Made by a program: the position numbers and the translations under genes
DNA from: a virus
Reading direction: 5' to 3' (one strand)
DNA: 42,052 bases
Virus record (IMG/VR): IMGVR_UViG_3300036835_000136
Coordinates: 1 to 42,052 of that record
Notes under the pieces: generated by a model
Told to the model about the DNA's origin: nothing
The model's database searches: none
The model's input: the letters and a program-made list of their open reading frames with translations, nothing else
Shown here: one piece after another, positions 33,963 through 39,051 of the stretch
Position numbering within the stretch: position 1 is the stretch's first letter
Layout: every line of letters starts with the position of its first letter

Positions 33963-34109
33963 ACTGAACTGAGGCAAGCGGTAATACCCGCTTACACTTG
34001 ACCGTAACCACTGAACTTCAGTGCTGCGTGAAATCCCCCCTATAGGGGGGATTTTTCGCAGCGGTTCACTGAAGCGCTGAACTGAACTACTGAACTTCAT
34101 CGGTTCAGT
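33963..34109. repeat. ACTGAA/TTCAGT repeat cluster
   Basis: ACTGAA starts at 33963, 34010, 34068, 34081 and 34089; TTCAGT starts at 34017 and 34104. ACTGAA and TTCAGT at 34010-34022 form an inverted repeat, and an AAGCGG/CCGCTT hairpin (33974-33991) lies among them. The cluster covers the gap after the primase-helicase gene and could be iterons or operators. Confidence 0.45.
34031..34056. terminator. Strong intrinsic terminator
   Basis: AAATCCCCCC (34031-34040) and GGGGGGATTT (34045-34054) make a 10-bp stem with a TATA loop. Five T follow on the plus strand, and A-rich sequence on the other side gives T on the minus strand. It lies just after the primase-helicase stop and probably ends the early operon. 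Confidence 0.8.
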
Positions 34110-36049
34110 TCACTGTCTGATAGGTAGTATACACCGCCAACTTTCTCGACAGCGTTCCGATCTACCAGGCGATTTAGCGCTTTCGCCGTGCCGCGCTCGC
34201 CAACGCCGGTTTTGTCGTCAACGTAATCCACAATGGCAGAGAAAGAGGCGCTACCATTCGCCAGACAAGCCAGGATCGCCCGCTCCGATGGGGGCGTAGG
34301 TCTGCTCGCATCCCCTGACTTGGATGGAGCCGCTGTGGGAGCTAGAACGCAGGACGTTTGATCGTCCAGGTTTTCAAGATCAATCACCTTTAGCCGGTAA
34401 TGCGAGGTTTCAAACTCTTTGGCGTCTTTTTGTTTCTCGCATCGCACGGTGATCAGATCCTCGTCTTTGGTGACTTCGATCATGGAGTACGCCGCGCCAG
34501 GGAGACTAGAGGAACCTCTCGTGCCAGCGCCGTTCTTGGGTTTGTGGTGAACGAGCAGGACATGGCAGCCAAAGAGCTTGGCGATGATGTCAGCGTTCTG
34601 TACCGCCTTGCCCATGTCCTGCGCGCTGTTCTCGTCGCCACCAGCGAGCGACCGCGCCAGTGTGTCGATGATGACCAGCTTGGGCGGCTCTGGCAGCGCC
34701 CGTAGCGCCGCGTGCAGCAAGCCCATATCCTCGTTGGACAAGAACTGGGGAGGATCGCCCAGGAGCCACAAGTCGGACTCACCCTGCCAGCCACGTTGCT
34801 GCTTCCAGGCGCGAATGCGATTGCCCATCCCACCAATACCCTCACCTGCGACGTAGGCCACCACACCCTGCTTGACCGCGCAGCCATTCCAGTGCATCCC
34901 TGTGGCGACACAGAGCGCCCAGTCCAGCGTGAGAAACGACTTGGCGCTGCCGTACTCGCCATAGACAATCGAGAGCGTGTTCTCGACGAGGTGTCCGTCA
35001 ATCAGCCAGGAGGGCGGAGGCAAGTTCTCGACTTCCGTATCCCGCATGAAGATGAACTTGCGCAGGGGCGTCGGTTCTTCTGGCCCATCGGATTCTTGCT
35101 CAGGTTCCGCTTGTGTAGCTTTCCTGGCGACTTGAGTAACAGGCTGCGGCTGATTCCTGAGCGTTGCGGGCTGCCCTGCTGGCCGTGTGTAGATGCTGTG
35201 CAGTGTCCGCAGGGCCTCGGCGGCGCTATAGCCCACGCCAGGAACGCCATCGGCATAGGCGACCATGTAGGGTTCCGCGTCTGCGAGTGAGAGTCTGGAC
35301 GTGTCGCGCAGTTGGCGCGCGAGATACATGCCGGTCTCGTTGCGGTTGCCTTCCTGCGCTTGGTTGAGATAATGCTTCACCCAATGCGCGGCGTTCTCGC
35401 TCGACATCTCAGGCATGGGCGTGATGATCGGCGCCAGCGTTGGCGCGCTTCGTGAGCGCCTGAGAAGCTCCAGGAGCCAGTCAGGCGGCGGCGCTGGCTC
35501 TAATGTGTTCTCCCAGGCGTAACGAGCGCCTGAGACGTGCAGAGACGGCGCGGCGACGATATAGCCGCCATCGCCGCGAATGTCCAGGCCAGGCAGACCA
35601 TCCAGGTTCGTGACATTGCGATAGAGCGCCTCATCGCGTGGATGAGCGTAGAGCATATGCCATCCACCGCCGCCAGTCTTGACGCCGAGCGTTTCTGTGA
35701 GCGCGCCGTGACGGCGCATCAGCTCGCGCAAGCCATCGATGCCGCCGTTCTTGGGGTCAATGTCCAGCGTGAGCAGCCCGCTTTGCCGTCCGGTCACGAT
35801 CCCGATATTCGCATAGGGCCAGCGCCGCCAGAAGTCACGAACAACGCCAGGATCAGTCGTCGCATCCTTCAACCCATGCGGCAAGAGCTCCTTGTGCCAG
35901 CGGGGATGCTTCGCTGGCTTATCGCAGTCCGGCTTGCCACAGGAGCAACCGCCATTGACCGGCGTGTGCAGCGCGACGACAGGCCAGCCACGCGCCGCAT
36001 AGGCGAGCGCCGCGTCCAGCAGGGGCGATGACTGATGTTGTTGTGCCAT
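34097..36049 (-). CDS. Primase-polymerase/helicase replication protein
   Basis: A 650-residue three-part replication enzyme. Residues about 8-195 are a bifunctional primase-polymerase domain with D96-I-D98 (LLTLDIDPKNGG), GGGGWHMLY at 126-134 and GLDIRGDGGYIVAAPS at 154-169. Residues about 345-560 are a RepA/AAA_25-type helicase: Walker A GEYGSAKS at 364-371, Walker B LVIIDTLARS around D462, and an LLVHHKP motif. The last 70 residues form a winged helix. It probably primes and unwinds at the phage origin. The ACTGAA repeats immediately downstream might be that origin. Confidence 0.85.
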   Translation of the reverse strand: MAQQHQSSPLLDAALAYAARGWPVVALHTPVNGGCSCGKPDCDKPAKHPRWHKELLPHGLKDATTDPGVVRDFWRRWPYANIGIVTGRQSGLLTLDIDPKNGGIDGLRELMRRHGALTETLGVKTGGGGWHMLYAHPRDEALYRNVTNLDGLPGLDIRGDGGYIVAAPSLHVSGARYAWENTLEPAPPPDWLLELLRRSRSAPTLAPIITPMPEMSSENAAHWVKHYLNQAQEGNRNETGMYLARQLRDTSRLSLADAEPYMVAYADGVPGVGYSAAEALRTLHSIYTRPAGQPATLRNQPQPVTQVARKATQAEPEQESDGPEEPTPLRKFIFMRDTEVENLPPPSWLIDGHLVENTLSIVYGEYGSAKSFLTLDWALCVATGMHWNGCAVKQGVVAYVAGEGIGGMGNRIRAWKQQRGWQGESDLWLLGDPPQFLSNEDMGLLHAALRALPEPPKLVIIDTLARSLAGGDENSAQDMGKAVQNADIIAKLFGCHVLLVHHKPKNGAGTRGSSSLPGAAYSMIEVTKDEDLITVRCEKQKDAKEFETSHYRLKVIDLENLDDQTSCVLAPTAAPSKSGDASRPTPPSERAILACLANGSASFSAIVDYVDDKTGVGERGTAKALNRLVDRNAVEKVGGVYYLSDSELNR

Positions 36050-36063
36050 GTCCTCGTACCCCT

Positions 36064-36912
36064 CTATGCGACCAGCGCCAGCAGCGCGTCACGGTCTCGA
36101 CTGTGTGTGGCGGCGCGACGTAGCTTCTCTAGCGCCTTCGATTCGATCTGTCGCACACGTTCGCGCGACAAGCCTACGCGCTTCACGCCAATGAGCGGCA
36201 TCATGCGTTTGGCCGTCGCGAGCAACGTGTGTGGCTCATGCCCGCCGAGGCCATACCGCAGCGCAATCACCGCTAGCTCACGGCCAGACAGACGCGCCCG
36301 GTTAATCAGTTTGACTAGCAGTTCTTCGCGCTCTAGCCGCTCGCTATCCACCGTGGCATCCGGGTCAGGCAGATGCTGGCTCAAGTCTTCAGATTTCGCG
36401 TCGTGCGGGTCGTATGGCTCGCTCAGATACGCGATGATCGGTTCCTGCCATTGCGGCTCTTCGCCTAGCCGTTTGGCTCGTCTCGCCTTGTCCTGCACAT
36501 GCACCGGCGTGTGGATCGTGAGTCCCTGTTGTGCATCGGCGCGCAATATCCTCGCCGCGATATGCCAGGTGGCGAAGGTAGAGAATCTGTAGCCGCTCTC
36601 ACAATCGAATAACTCCACCGCGCGCATGAGACCGATTGCGCCCTCTTGGAAGGCGTCAGCCAGCGGGATAGTCCGCTCTCGCCTCAACCGCATGGCGGTC
36701 GCCATCACGAGCTTTGCATTGTGTGCCACGGCAAGTTGAAACGCCTCTGCATCACCAGCCTGAGCGCGGGCGATCAGCGCATTGTTTTCGTCCGGCTCCA
36801 GCGGCGGATAGCGCTCAAGGTCGGCGAGCAATAGGTCAATAACCGTCCGCTCGCTATCTCGCTTGGCAAGTTCCGCTGCCTGTGCAATCAGGCCGATGAG
36901 ATGATCCGTCAT
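36064..36912 (-). CDS. Phage-encoded sigma-70-family factor
   Basis: A 282-residue sigma factor. ATG 36912 is chosen; a GTG at 36915 overlaps the upstream stop. Region 2 is clear: NAKLVMATAMRLRRERTIPLADAFQEGAIGLMRAVELFDCESGYRFSTFATWHIAARIL, including core-binding 2.2 and the -10-melting helix. Region 3 follows. Region 4 is RELAVIALRYGLGG ... GLSRERVRQIESKALEKLRR, the -35-binding HTH. There is no region 1.1. It would redirect host RNA polymerase, probably to late or middle promoters, a role usual in some large phages but uncommon in 42-kb temperate ones. Confidence 0.85.
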   Translation of the reverse strand: MTDHLIGLIAQAAELAKRDSERTVIDLLLADLERYPPLEPDENNALIARAQAGDAEAFQLAVAHNAKLVMATAMRLRRERTIPLADAFQEGAIGLMRAVELFDCESGYRFSTFATWHIAARILRADAQQGLTIHTPVHVQDKARRAKRLGEEPQWQEPIIAYLSEPYDPHDAKSEDLSQHLPDPDATVDSERLEREELLVKLINRARLSGRELAVIALRYGLGGHEPHTLLATAKRMMPLIGVKRVGLSRERVRQIESKALEKLRRAATHSRDRDALLALVA

Positions 36913-36914
36913 CA

Positions 36915-37247
36915 CTAGGCTGCCTGCATGTTGTAGAGGGCGCTTACTACTGTCTGTAAGGCGTAGCCGCTGTACACTTGCCCGCTTGAGAAGCGCAATA
37001 CACGGTAGTTCATCAGGACGGCGGTGTTATATTTCACCGCGTCGTCTTCAAATCCCTTACCGGTGACGTGGCGACCGCCGGTATAGACCCCGCCTTCAAT
37101 CTCGATTATCAGACGCTCAGACACAAAGCAGAAATCATTGCGCCAGTGACGTTTGATTGACTTGGCGAAAAGATATTCACGCTTTGGATGCAAACCGAGC
37201 GCGGCCATATCTTCCGCCAATTTTTCGACTGCTGGTTTCTTGCTCAT
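36915..37247 (-). CDS. PD-(D/E)XK endonuclease of the phage DUF559-like type
   Basis: ATG 37247 opens a 110-residue protein. The sequence PKREYLFAKSIKRHWRNDFCFVSERLIIEIEGGVYTGGRHVTGKGFEDDAVKYNTAVLMNYRVLRFSSGQV matches a common small phage endonuclease: D38, E49/E51 and the GRH-x-x-GxGFExD-x-x-KYN block. It is close to Vsr/DUF559 nucleases and may resolve recombination or replication intermediates. The frame extends to 37391 through the GG arrays, giving a false Gly/Trp-periodic N-terminus, which I exclude. Its leader is array D and the sequence after it. Confidence 0.8.
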   Translation of the reverse strand: MSKKPAVEKLAEDMAALGLHPKREYLFAKSIKRHWRNDFCFVSERLIIEIEGGVYTGGRHVTGKGFEDDAVKYNTAVLMNYRVLRFSSGQVYSGYALQTVVSALYNMQAA

Positions 37248-37280
37248 ACCTGGCTGCCTTTGATAATCGAACGATAAGAA

Positions 37281-37337
37281 CCACGCCGCGCCAAACCACG
37301 CCAGTCCTGACCATGCCTTGCCTGAAAAGGCCACGCC
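37281..37337 (-). repeat. GG-pentad array D
   Basis: GG at 11 of 12 positions spaced five bases from 37281 to 37336; the exception is 37326. It ends 34 bases before the endonuclease start codon. Confidence 0.8.
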
Positions 37338-37346
37338 TCGATTGTC

Positions 37347-37377
37347 AGCCGCCTGCGGAATCACCCAACAAGCGGCT
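37347..37377 (-). ncRNA. Hairpin 3
   Basis: AGCCGC/GCGGCT stem with a less regular inner stem and a loop containing GGGTGATT, aligned with GGGTGAAA of the other hairpins. The linker 37338-37346 reads GACAATCGA. Confidence 0.6.
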
Positions 37378-37444
37378 CCCTGCCAAACCACACCAATCCG
37401 TAACCCACCCTGCCACTCCCAACCGAACCCGGCCCTGCCGAGCC
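37378..37444 (-). repeat. GG-pentad array C
   Basis: GG at 13 of 14 positions spaced five bases from 37378 to 37443; the only exception is 37403. Confidence 0.8.
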
Positions 37445-37453
37445 GCGATTGTT

Positions 37454-37484
37454 GGCGAGCGCCGGTTTCACCCGAACGCTAGCC
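37454..37484 (-). ncRNA. Hairpin 2
   Basis: GGCTAGCG pairs with CGCTCGCC (one mismatch), and an inner CGG/CCG closes a loop with GTGAAA. GGGTGAAA sits at the same place as in hairpin 1. The linker 37445-37453 reads AACAATCGC. Confidence 0.6.
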
Positions 37485-37571
37485 CCTTGCCGCACCAGGC
37501 CCGTCCTCTCCTGACCGCACAACGCCGCTCCCGGCCTGAGCACACCCAACCATGCCTTACGCCACCTAGCC
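37485..37571 (-). repeat. GG-pentad array B
   Basis: GG at 15 of 18 positions spaced five bases from 37485 to 37570; exceptions are 37520, 37540 and 37560. The intervening triplets are almost all different, so this is not simple slippage. Confidence 0.75.
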
Positions 37572-37580
37572 TTGATTGAC

Positions 37581-37610
37581 CGCTGGCTAGGCTTTCACCC
37601 CTAACCAGCG
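37581..37610 (-). ncRNA. Hairpin 1
   Basis: CGCTGG/CCAGCG, a mismatch, then TAGG/CCTA; the 8-nt loop region contains GGTGAAAG. The following linker 37572-37580 reads GTCAATCAA in the transcript. Confidence 0.6.
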
Positions 37611-37667
37611 CCTTGCCTTACCAAGCCGCAACCCGCCTAGCCGTGACTCGCGTTGCCGCACCGTGCC
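37611..37667 (-). repeat. GG-pentad array A
   Basis: Minus-strand GG (CC on the plus strand) falls at every fifth base from 37611: 9 of 12 positions match, the exceptions being 37631, 37646 and 37651. It begins about 11 bases after the stop codon of the upstream gene (37679) and ends at hairpin 1. Confidence 0.7.
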
Positions 37668-37678
37668 GCGCGAGACGA

Positions 37679-38224
37679 CTATCCCGCGCGCTTTTCGGCG
37701 CCCTCCTCCTCTGGCGGAAGCAACTCGCGCTCCCACTGGCGAAGGGAATAGCCCGGCGGACGTGGCGGACGTGGCCGCGACATCTCTATCGCCTGCCGGA
37801 TCATCCCCAACTTGCCGAGCGCCTCATGACGCCGCGTGACTTGTGCGGCGGTCAATTCATCACGGCGCGCATAGATCAGCTTGTTGGCGCCCTGGACGTT
37901 CGCCCGGCGCATCTCTCTCACTGCTTTGCGCTCCGCGACCTCCGCCGTATCCTGCTGCGCGATGACCTTGTAGCCACGCGCATGCAGACTCTCGACATGA
38001 ATCCCATGCGCGATCAGCAGTTGCGCGCGCCATGCCTCCACGCGGCGCATGCGGACGATCTGCCATGCCTGAAATTTGTCTGTCTGGCGCGGCTTACTTC
38101 CCACGCCCAGCGCAGAATCAAGCCAGGCATGGGTAAAGACATGTTCAGCTTTGGCCGTCTCAGCGGCGATCAGCGCGGCATGATTGACGATCTCTTGCTC
38201 AGTCTGTTCTATCTCGTCTGACAT
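37679..38224 (-). CDS. Conserved-looking phage protein of unknown function
   Basis: ATG 38224 follows AAGGAGGAAT; the frame to 38290 is not used. The 181-residue protein has a helical start (EIEQTEQEIVNHAALIAAETAKAEHVFTHAWLDSALGVGSKPRQTDKFQAWQIVRMRRVEAWRAQLLIAHGIHVES). A charged middle (GYKVIAQQDTAEVAERKAVREMRRA) and a Pro/Arg-rich tail follow. I recall similar proteins in other phages next to replication genes, without known function. It is paired with the gene at 38229 (four-base gap), and the two are bracketed by the GG arrays. Confidence 0.6.
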   Translation of the reverse strand: MSDEIEQTEQEIVNHAALIAAETAKAEHVFTHAWLDSALGVGSKPRQTDKFQAWQIVRMRRVEAWRAQLLIAHGIHVESLHARGYKVIAQQDTAEVAERKAVREMRRANVQGANKLIYARRDELTAAQVTRRHEALGKLGMIRQAIEMSRPRPPRPPGYSLRQWERELLPPEEEGAEKRAG

Positions 38225-38228
38225 CCGG

Positions 38229-38819
38229 CTATTCCTCCTTGCGCCCTGTGAGCGCAACGGTGAAGCGGCCATGCGTTGGGCGATAATCACCTAAGCCAAC
38301 GCGCCGTCCTGCCGTCTCCAAAATGCGGCAGATGTCTTCAGGGTCAATCAACTCGCCATCCACTGAGAGCGAGAATGACGCCGACCAGTCAAGGAAAATC
38401 GGGCGCGCCCGATTGACTGTGCGGCCCATGACGCGCGCCGGGCGAAGATCAAAGAATCGCCCGTCATCGTAAAGGCCGGTGATGTCGCGTGGTCCGTCGT
38501 AGCGAAGCGGGATACGCGACTCGTCTACCATCACTGCCTCAAGAATGGACTTGCCTTGCTTTGTCTTCTTGGCGGCGTCGCGCAGACATGCCAGCATCAT
38601 TTCAGCCGGGATGTACGGACCTGTCTTGGCGTCGTGATACATCCCTAGCTCCCATTCAATGCGAGCGATTTCGTCCAAGTCTTCTTCGCTCTTGGTTCGC
38701 TTGGCCGTGATTGCCTTGAGTTGTTTCGCCAGCGGCTCGCGCGGATTGACGCCTCGGTTAGAGTGCATCAGAAATGGCGCAGTGCCGGTAATCGTGAACT
38801 GTAATTGCTCGATTGCCAT
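38229..38819 (-). CDS. Conserved phage protein, possible RAMP-like fold
   Basis: A 196-residue protein: LQFTITGTAPFLMHSNRGVNPREPLAKQLKAI at the start, GPYIPAEMMLACLRDAAKKTKQGKS in the middle, then WSASFSLSVDGELIDPEDICRILETAGRRVGLGDYRPTHGRFTVAL at the end. The closing glycine-rich segment after a helix, with strands on both sides, recalls the glycine loop of RAMP/Cas7-type ferredoxin-like RNA-binding proteins. Similar proteins are familiar in phage genomes as hypothetical proteins. The array E leader lies directly before it and arrays A-D follow its partner gene. An RNA-binding role is inference. Confidence 0.6.
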   Translation of the reverse strand: MAIEQLQFTITGTAPFLMHSNRGVNPREPLAKQLKAITAKRTKSEEDLDEIARIEWELGMYHDAKTGPYIPAEMMLACLRDAAKKTKQGKSILEAVMVDESRIPLRYDGPRDITGLYDDGRFFDLRPARVMGRTVNRARPIFLDWSASFSLSVDGELIDPEDICRILETAGRRVGLGDYRPTHGRFTVALTGRKEE

Positions 38820-38837: not shown

Positions 38838-38949
38838 TTGCGTTTGAGGCCCCGCTATGCTAAAATCCCTGTGCGGGGCAATGTCTCATCTCTCTCACGG
38901 TCTCTCTCCTGCGAACGCTCGTCACACCCAATGGCGAGCGTTTCTCTTT
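38838..38949 (+). ncRNA. Candidate antisense small RNA and its promoter
   Basis: On the plus strand TTGCGT (38838-38843) and TAAAAT (38861-38866, preceded by TGC) are 17 bp apart. A hairpin AACGCTCG/CGAGCGTT (38914-38942) followed by TTTCTCTTT could terminate the transcript, giving an RNA of roughly 75 nt. It would be pyrimidine-rich and antisense to the leader of the gene at 38229. Confidence 0.35.
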
Positions 38950-38981
38950 GGTCTCGCGTTACTCGATAACTGCCTCCATTT

Positions 38982-39051
38982 CCAAGCCGTACCTAGCCAT
39001 GCCAAGCCTCTCCGCGCCCCACCCAACCTCGCCATTCCATACCGAGCCTAG
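38982..39051 (-). repeat. GG-pentad array E
   Basis: GG occurs at all 14 positions spaced five bases from 38982 to 39047. The triplets between them vary (CTC, TAT, AAT, CGA, TTG and so on). The array starts about 20 bases after the stop of the upstream gene and lies in the leader of the gene at 38229. Confidence 0.85.

Follow-up and report, generated by a model that had tools for sequence, protein, structure and literature searches.

Our analysis covered 42,052 nucleotides of an IMG/VR virus record (IMGVR_UViG_3300036835_000136, positions 1 to 42,052), hereafter the window. Its minus strand carries a pair of genes with tracts of five-nucleotide units on both sides, one tract upstream and four downstream of the pair, all in the same orientation (Table 1). 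In the upstream tract, which was the site noted first, GG recurs at each fifth base of the transcript strand for 14 consecutive units without a fault (plus-strand coordinates 38982-39048), as the first-pass annotation had described. From the frequency of overlapping CC in the window (0.076), approximately 9e-12 such runs would be expected per window, so that chance is indeed a negligible explanation. The longest run of GG at five-base spacing on the opposite strand was 3. A fault-tolerant scan identified four further tracts on the same strand within 37278-37667; thus, the window contains five GG pentad tracts, rather than the two arrays that had been counted in this operon.

Table 1. Features of the vipr-vap1 region of the window
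Feature	Position	Strand	Description
vrRNA U repeat tract (site first noted)	38979-39048	minus	14 GGY/NN pentads, GG in 14/14
vrRNA U tail hairpin	38914-38942	minus	GGGUG in loop, z -1.9
vipr	38229-38819	minus	196-aa RAMP protein (phrog_4652); 35% identity with SUSP1 Vipr
vap1-like accessory gene	37679-38221	minus	phrog_5926; homologue of the gene that follows vipr in SUSP1 and LESphi2
vrRNA A repeat tract	37608-37667	minus	12 pentads, 3 without GG; last pentad overlaps into hairpin
vrRNA A tail hairpin	37581-37610	minus	11 bp, z -5.2
vrRNA B repeat tract	37482-37571	minus	18 pentads, 3 without GG; last pentad overlaps into hairpin
vrRNA B tail hairpin	37454-37484	minus	z -2.7
vrRNA C repeat tract	37375-37444	minus	14 pentads, 1 without GG; last pentad overlaps into hairpin
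vrRNA C tail hairpin	37347-37377	minus	z -4.1
vrRNA D repeat tract	37278-37337	minus	12 pentads, 1 without GG

We determined the information content of each unit position from the 70 units of the five tracts. The values for positions 1 to 5 were 1.63, 1.58, 0.47, 0.07 and 0.02 bits, which corresponds to the consensus GGYNN (written GGY/NN) with positions 1 and 2 nearly fixed, position 3 mostly C or T, and positions 4 and 5 free. The third base was C or T in 59 of the 70 units and A in 10, and all 8 units without GG had C or T at this position. Thus, the triplets that had been called varied are free at their last two positions but favor a pyrimidine at the first. These regularities bear on quadruplex formation by the transcript, which the first-pass annotation had proposed to probe, and on the reading of the transcript as a purely structural G-rich RNA. 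GG runs separated by short loops could in principle stack; however, quadruplex formation requires no strict five-base period across 14 units and no pyrimidine at position 3, and it would leave the linkage to a RAMP gene described below unexplained. We consider this reading extremely improbable.

Tracts U, A, B and C are each followed by a hairpin, among them the one with a GGGTG loop that had been noticed near tract U, and no tail hairpin was recognized downstream of tract D. The stem sequences of the four hairpins differ, and GGGUG is invariant at the loop (z -1.9 to -5.2), indicating that pairing was kept despite changes on both sides of the stem. No Rfam family was matched in the window. 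An inverted repeat (CCCCGC...GCGGGG, 38850-38880) lies between the vrRNA U tail and the vipr start codon and is not followed by a T run; it might signal the end of an RNA or its processing.

The protein encoded by the first gene of the pair matched PDB entry 36pp, 'SUSP1 Vipr protein', over residues 6-191 (E 6.9e-31), and the two sequences are 35% identical over nearly their full length. We also found that the AlphaFold model of this protein (pLDDT 92.4) most closely resembled Csm3/Cas7 subunits in a structure library that predates 36pp (Foldseek E 6.7e-7), with a Z score of 12.1 and an rmsd of 3.2 over 158 residues against Csm3, at about 12% sequence identity. The product of the second gene was similar to SUSP1 vap1 (BLASTP 2e-9) and to the corresponding LESphi2 gene (5e-11). 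When the genes following other viprs were compared in a single-sequence search, 26 of 71 were similar to the window gene and 43 of 71 to SUSP1 vap1. The model of the vap1 product (pLDDT 86) had no significant PDB match, and Pfam, PADLOC and NCBIfam yielded no model for either protein. The gene after the downstream tracts (36915-37247) belongs to phrog_503, a family of unknown function, and beyond it lie genes for a sigma factor (36064-36915) and a primase-polymerase (34097-36049). These neighbors place the locus within a replication/regulation block.

VIPR was described in a preprint (PMC13142463, April-June 2026), and no further paper on the system came up in the literature collection that we searched. 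The system comprises the small RAMP protein Vipr, which has a single RRM, an accessory vap gene and vrRNAs, and it resides mainly in viruses or proviruses (PMC13142463). Each vrRNA consists of 9-16 YNNGG repeats, in which NN is hypervariable, and a structured 3′ tail that the vrRNAs of a locus have in common, and vrRNAs are expressed as RNAs of about 100 nt bound to Vipr (PMC13142463). Double-stranded DNA is read by the NN pairs in a gapped code that skips one base between pairs, and guidance of DNA binding was demonstrated for the SUSP1 vrRNAs (PMC13142463). The SUSP1 system was characterized with that of P. fulva as type II, the tail of the SUSP1 clade was predicted to be a pseudoknot, and phages use VIPR as an RNA-guided weapon against rival phages (PMC13142463). 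The window contains a RAMP Vipr, a vap gene, YNNGG tracts of 14, 12, 14 and 12 units, and tail hairpins for vrRNAs U, A, B and C; tract B, with its 18 units, exceeds the published range. Its origin in a virus record is consistent with viral or proviral carriage.

As in the SUSP1 locus (KT454805.2; PDB 36pp), the small RAMP protein is encoded in a phage genome, a vap1-type gene follows directly, the tails are structured, and GGY/NN tracts flank the gene pair, one before and three after it in SUSP1. The two loci differ in that the window has five tracts rather than four, its Vipr is just 35% identical, the third position of its units is looser and some units lack GG, and its tail is a hairpin with a variable stem and a fixed GGGUG loop instead of the predicted pseudoknot. 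Gordonia phages Trine and MakoManhole and Mycobacterium phage LittleE likewise encode Viprs (37-45% identical) with adjoining GGY/NN tracts, but a tRNA T-arm-like GGTTCGANTCC takes the place of the GGGUG hairpin in the tails of these phages.

This layout argues against a reading of tract U as a leader, as it had been annotated. In such a cis-acting autoregulatory leader the RAMP protein would coat the pentads of its own mRNA and stop translation, with no DNA target, and the position of tract U upstream of vipr on the same strand is what such a leader would show. However, only tract U precedes vipr-vap and the other four tracts follow it, as tracts also do in SUSP1, every tract has different NN letters and a tail of its own (none was recognized for D), and SUSP1 vrRNAs guide DNA binding (PMC13142463). 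An autoregulatory leader is thus very improbable, and the pentad tract is best read as part of a trans-acting RNA, not mainly as a leader element or quadruplex.

Two known systems were also considered and rejected. The window Vipr shares its fold with the RAMP subunits of class 1 CRISPR-Cas systems; however, the window has a single RAMP gene and no array of identical repeats and unique spacers, and its five-base units contrast with a contiguous spacer. The binding sites of TRAP in trp leaders are short RNA units with a period near 5 that are bound by a protein multimer, the unit being (G/U)AG. In contrast, the window consensus is GGYNN, the linked protein is a RAMP protein, and tracts are found both before and after the gene.

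We searched IMG/VR for ten consecutive GGNNN units and recovered at least 119 stretches. The matches listed were mostly diverse GGYNN tracts, often several per locus, and about 12 were simple G-rich repeats. When the genes at array loci were clustered with array translations masked, one family dominated, a protein of about 200 aa that was found at no fewer than 54 loci, always on the strand of the array and mostly directly adjacent to it; its member in the window is vipr. The simple repeats among the bare-pattern matches are what a functionless low-complexity sequence made by slippage would predict. However, the window units are diverse rather than copies of a single unit, and unrelated viruses share the pattern, next to one gene family and on a single strand. 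This linkage to strand and gene already refutes slippage, to which we assign a virtually negligible probability.

We also examined the association in the reverse direction. A search of IMG/VR with the window Vipr as a single protein gave no confirmed match, and a profile search with Vipr gave hundreds. Eighty Vipr loci were then collected by protein similarity alone, with arrays ignored. A GG array was present on the coding strand in 56 of the 80 loci, compared with 1 on the opposite strand and 1 in 400 shuffled sequences. In 23 of the remaining 24 loci we detected a relaxed G-N-Y array, with scores clearly above the shuffles and, in all 23, above the opposite strand; this profile was drawn up after inspection of locus L138 and was hence partly guided, which leaves the shuffle and strand controls unaffected. 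Thus, one or the other type of array occurs in 79 of the 80 loci, and conservation of the gene beside leaders that lack arrays, the outcome that the first-pass annotation had set against function, is not what we observed. Its claim that the arrays are functional is supported by comparative evidence, as they are recurrent and tied to vipr.

In L138 (1900-2460), as in L136, L139, L168-L178 and others, the unit is G-N-Y/NN with the second G often missing, and a long repeated tail (CTAACGACAGAATAGAG...CTATCGTTAGA) follows each tract. In a tree of 70 Viprs, L138 was the nearest relative of the window Vipr, and the two grouped as a separate deep branch inside a clade of 27 rows that includes the SUSP1, Pseudomonas and actinophage Viprs (98/98 support). 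Three loci (L029, 6311-7015; L080, 7600-9150; and L100) contain up to 41-43 unbroken GGYNN units with repeated internal blocks, compared with the published 9-16; these tracts may be the overlapping 'staggered' arrays mentioned in PMC13142463. Pseudomonas phage LESphi2 (L132) and Mycobacterium phage prophiBWHA-1 (L134), temperate phages of P. aeruginosa LESB58 and M. abscessus, respectively, carry vipr-vap loci with GGY/NN tracts whose proteins are annotated as hypothetical.

The tails varied among clades. Among the tracts of other loci we found one further GGGUG hairpin, a weak case, and none was seen in the other clades sampled. In actinophage-type loci, the vrRNA tails contain the tRNA T-arm consensus GGTTCGANTCC with an acceptor-like stem after it; this was the case for 20 of 529 tracts, compared with about 0.06 expected from base counts. 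These tails lie just after the arrays of L046, L129 (Trine), L130 (MakoManhole), L131 (LittleE), L146, L155, L156, L163, L169, L182 and L194. ARAGORN called one of them (L129, 3783-3851) a tRNA of unknown type, and there was no Rfam call. The main text of PMC13142463 makes no mention of tRNA-like tails. We tentatively suggest, as a possibility that we hold to be somewhat doubtful, that the GGGUG-loop hairpin with a free stem is a tail class absent from that main text and that vrRNA tails are exchangeable recognition or processing modules that change by clade: a hairpin here, a pseudoknot in SUSP1, and tRNA T-arm-like halves in actinophages, which might borrow host tRNA-processing enzymes.

Guide U, decoded with a one-base skip, would read TCNATNATNGANTGNGGNGCNGANTTNATNTANACNTTNAA on the strand with the sense of the RNA, and this site is absent from the window. 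When all five guides were compared with 1.5 Mb of retrieved sequence at skips of 0-3 bases, the only matches were chance ones and, at skip 3, the tracts from which the guides derive. Using eight-unit cores, we also searched IMG/VR with each of the five guides and a genome collection with guide U, and no match had flanks that extended clearly beyond chance. The best target match was that of guide A to L414, with 24 of 28 bases at a one-base skip, which was not significant among 51 matches. This weak candidate site is on the reverse strand near base 2497, with the skipped bases at the third codon positions of a long open reading frame, and nothing in the window is homologous to the L414 protein.

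Taken together, the anatomy of the sequence, the homology of the proteins, the fold of Vipr, the order of the genes, their strand linkage to the tracts, and the tail hairpins make it very probable that a phage carries here a VIPR locus of the SUSP1 kind, with one tract upstream and four downstream, and that the 38982-39048 tract is the guide part of one of its vrRNAs, which would block transcription in a rival. Counting against this reading are the absence of a target match clearly above chance for any guide, the units with A at position 3 or without GG, the length of tract B, the missing tail of tract D and the absence of the GGGUG tail from the other clades sampled. Thus, the first-pass annotation had recognized arrays that are real, recurrent, functional by comparative evidence and tied to vipr, and what did not stand is a reading of them mainly as a leader element or as a quadruplex. 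Judged by its sequence, the locus is a new, deep-branching member of the SUSP1-like VIPR systems with a tail hairpin of its own. We infer its expression and activity, and the guide function and reading rule are carried over from the SUSP1 work. In the proposed mechanism, each vrRNA would consist of 12-18 GGY/NN pentads, with a hairpin tail after four of the five tracts. By homology with SUSP1, copies of Vipr would line the vrRNA, approximately one subunit per pentad, with the protein holding GGY. The NN pairs would then read double-stranded DNA, skipping one base from each pair to the next, so that a pentad would cover three target bases and guide U about 42. Binding of the vrRNA-guided Vipr to DNA would block transcription of a gene in a rival phage or satellite.

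VIPR is a just-published form of RNA-guided DNA recognition that uses a gapped code and has been proposed to be older than CRISPR. The link between GGY/NN arrays and vipr is independently supported in both search directions, from the pattern and from the protein, and the bare DNA pattern suffices to find VIPR loci in viral metagenomes. With the window locus, which was recognized from raw sequence, this family would gain a deep-branching member that has five guides and differs in its tail.
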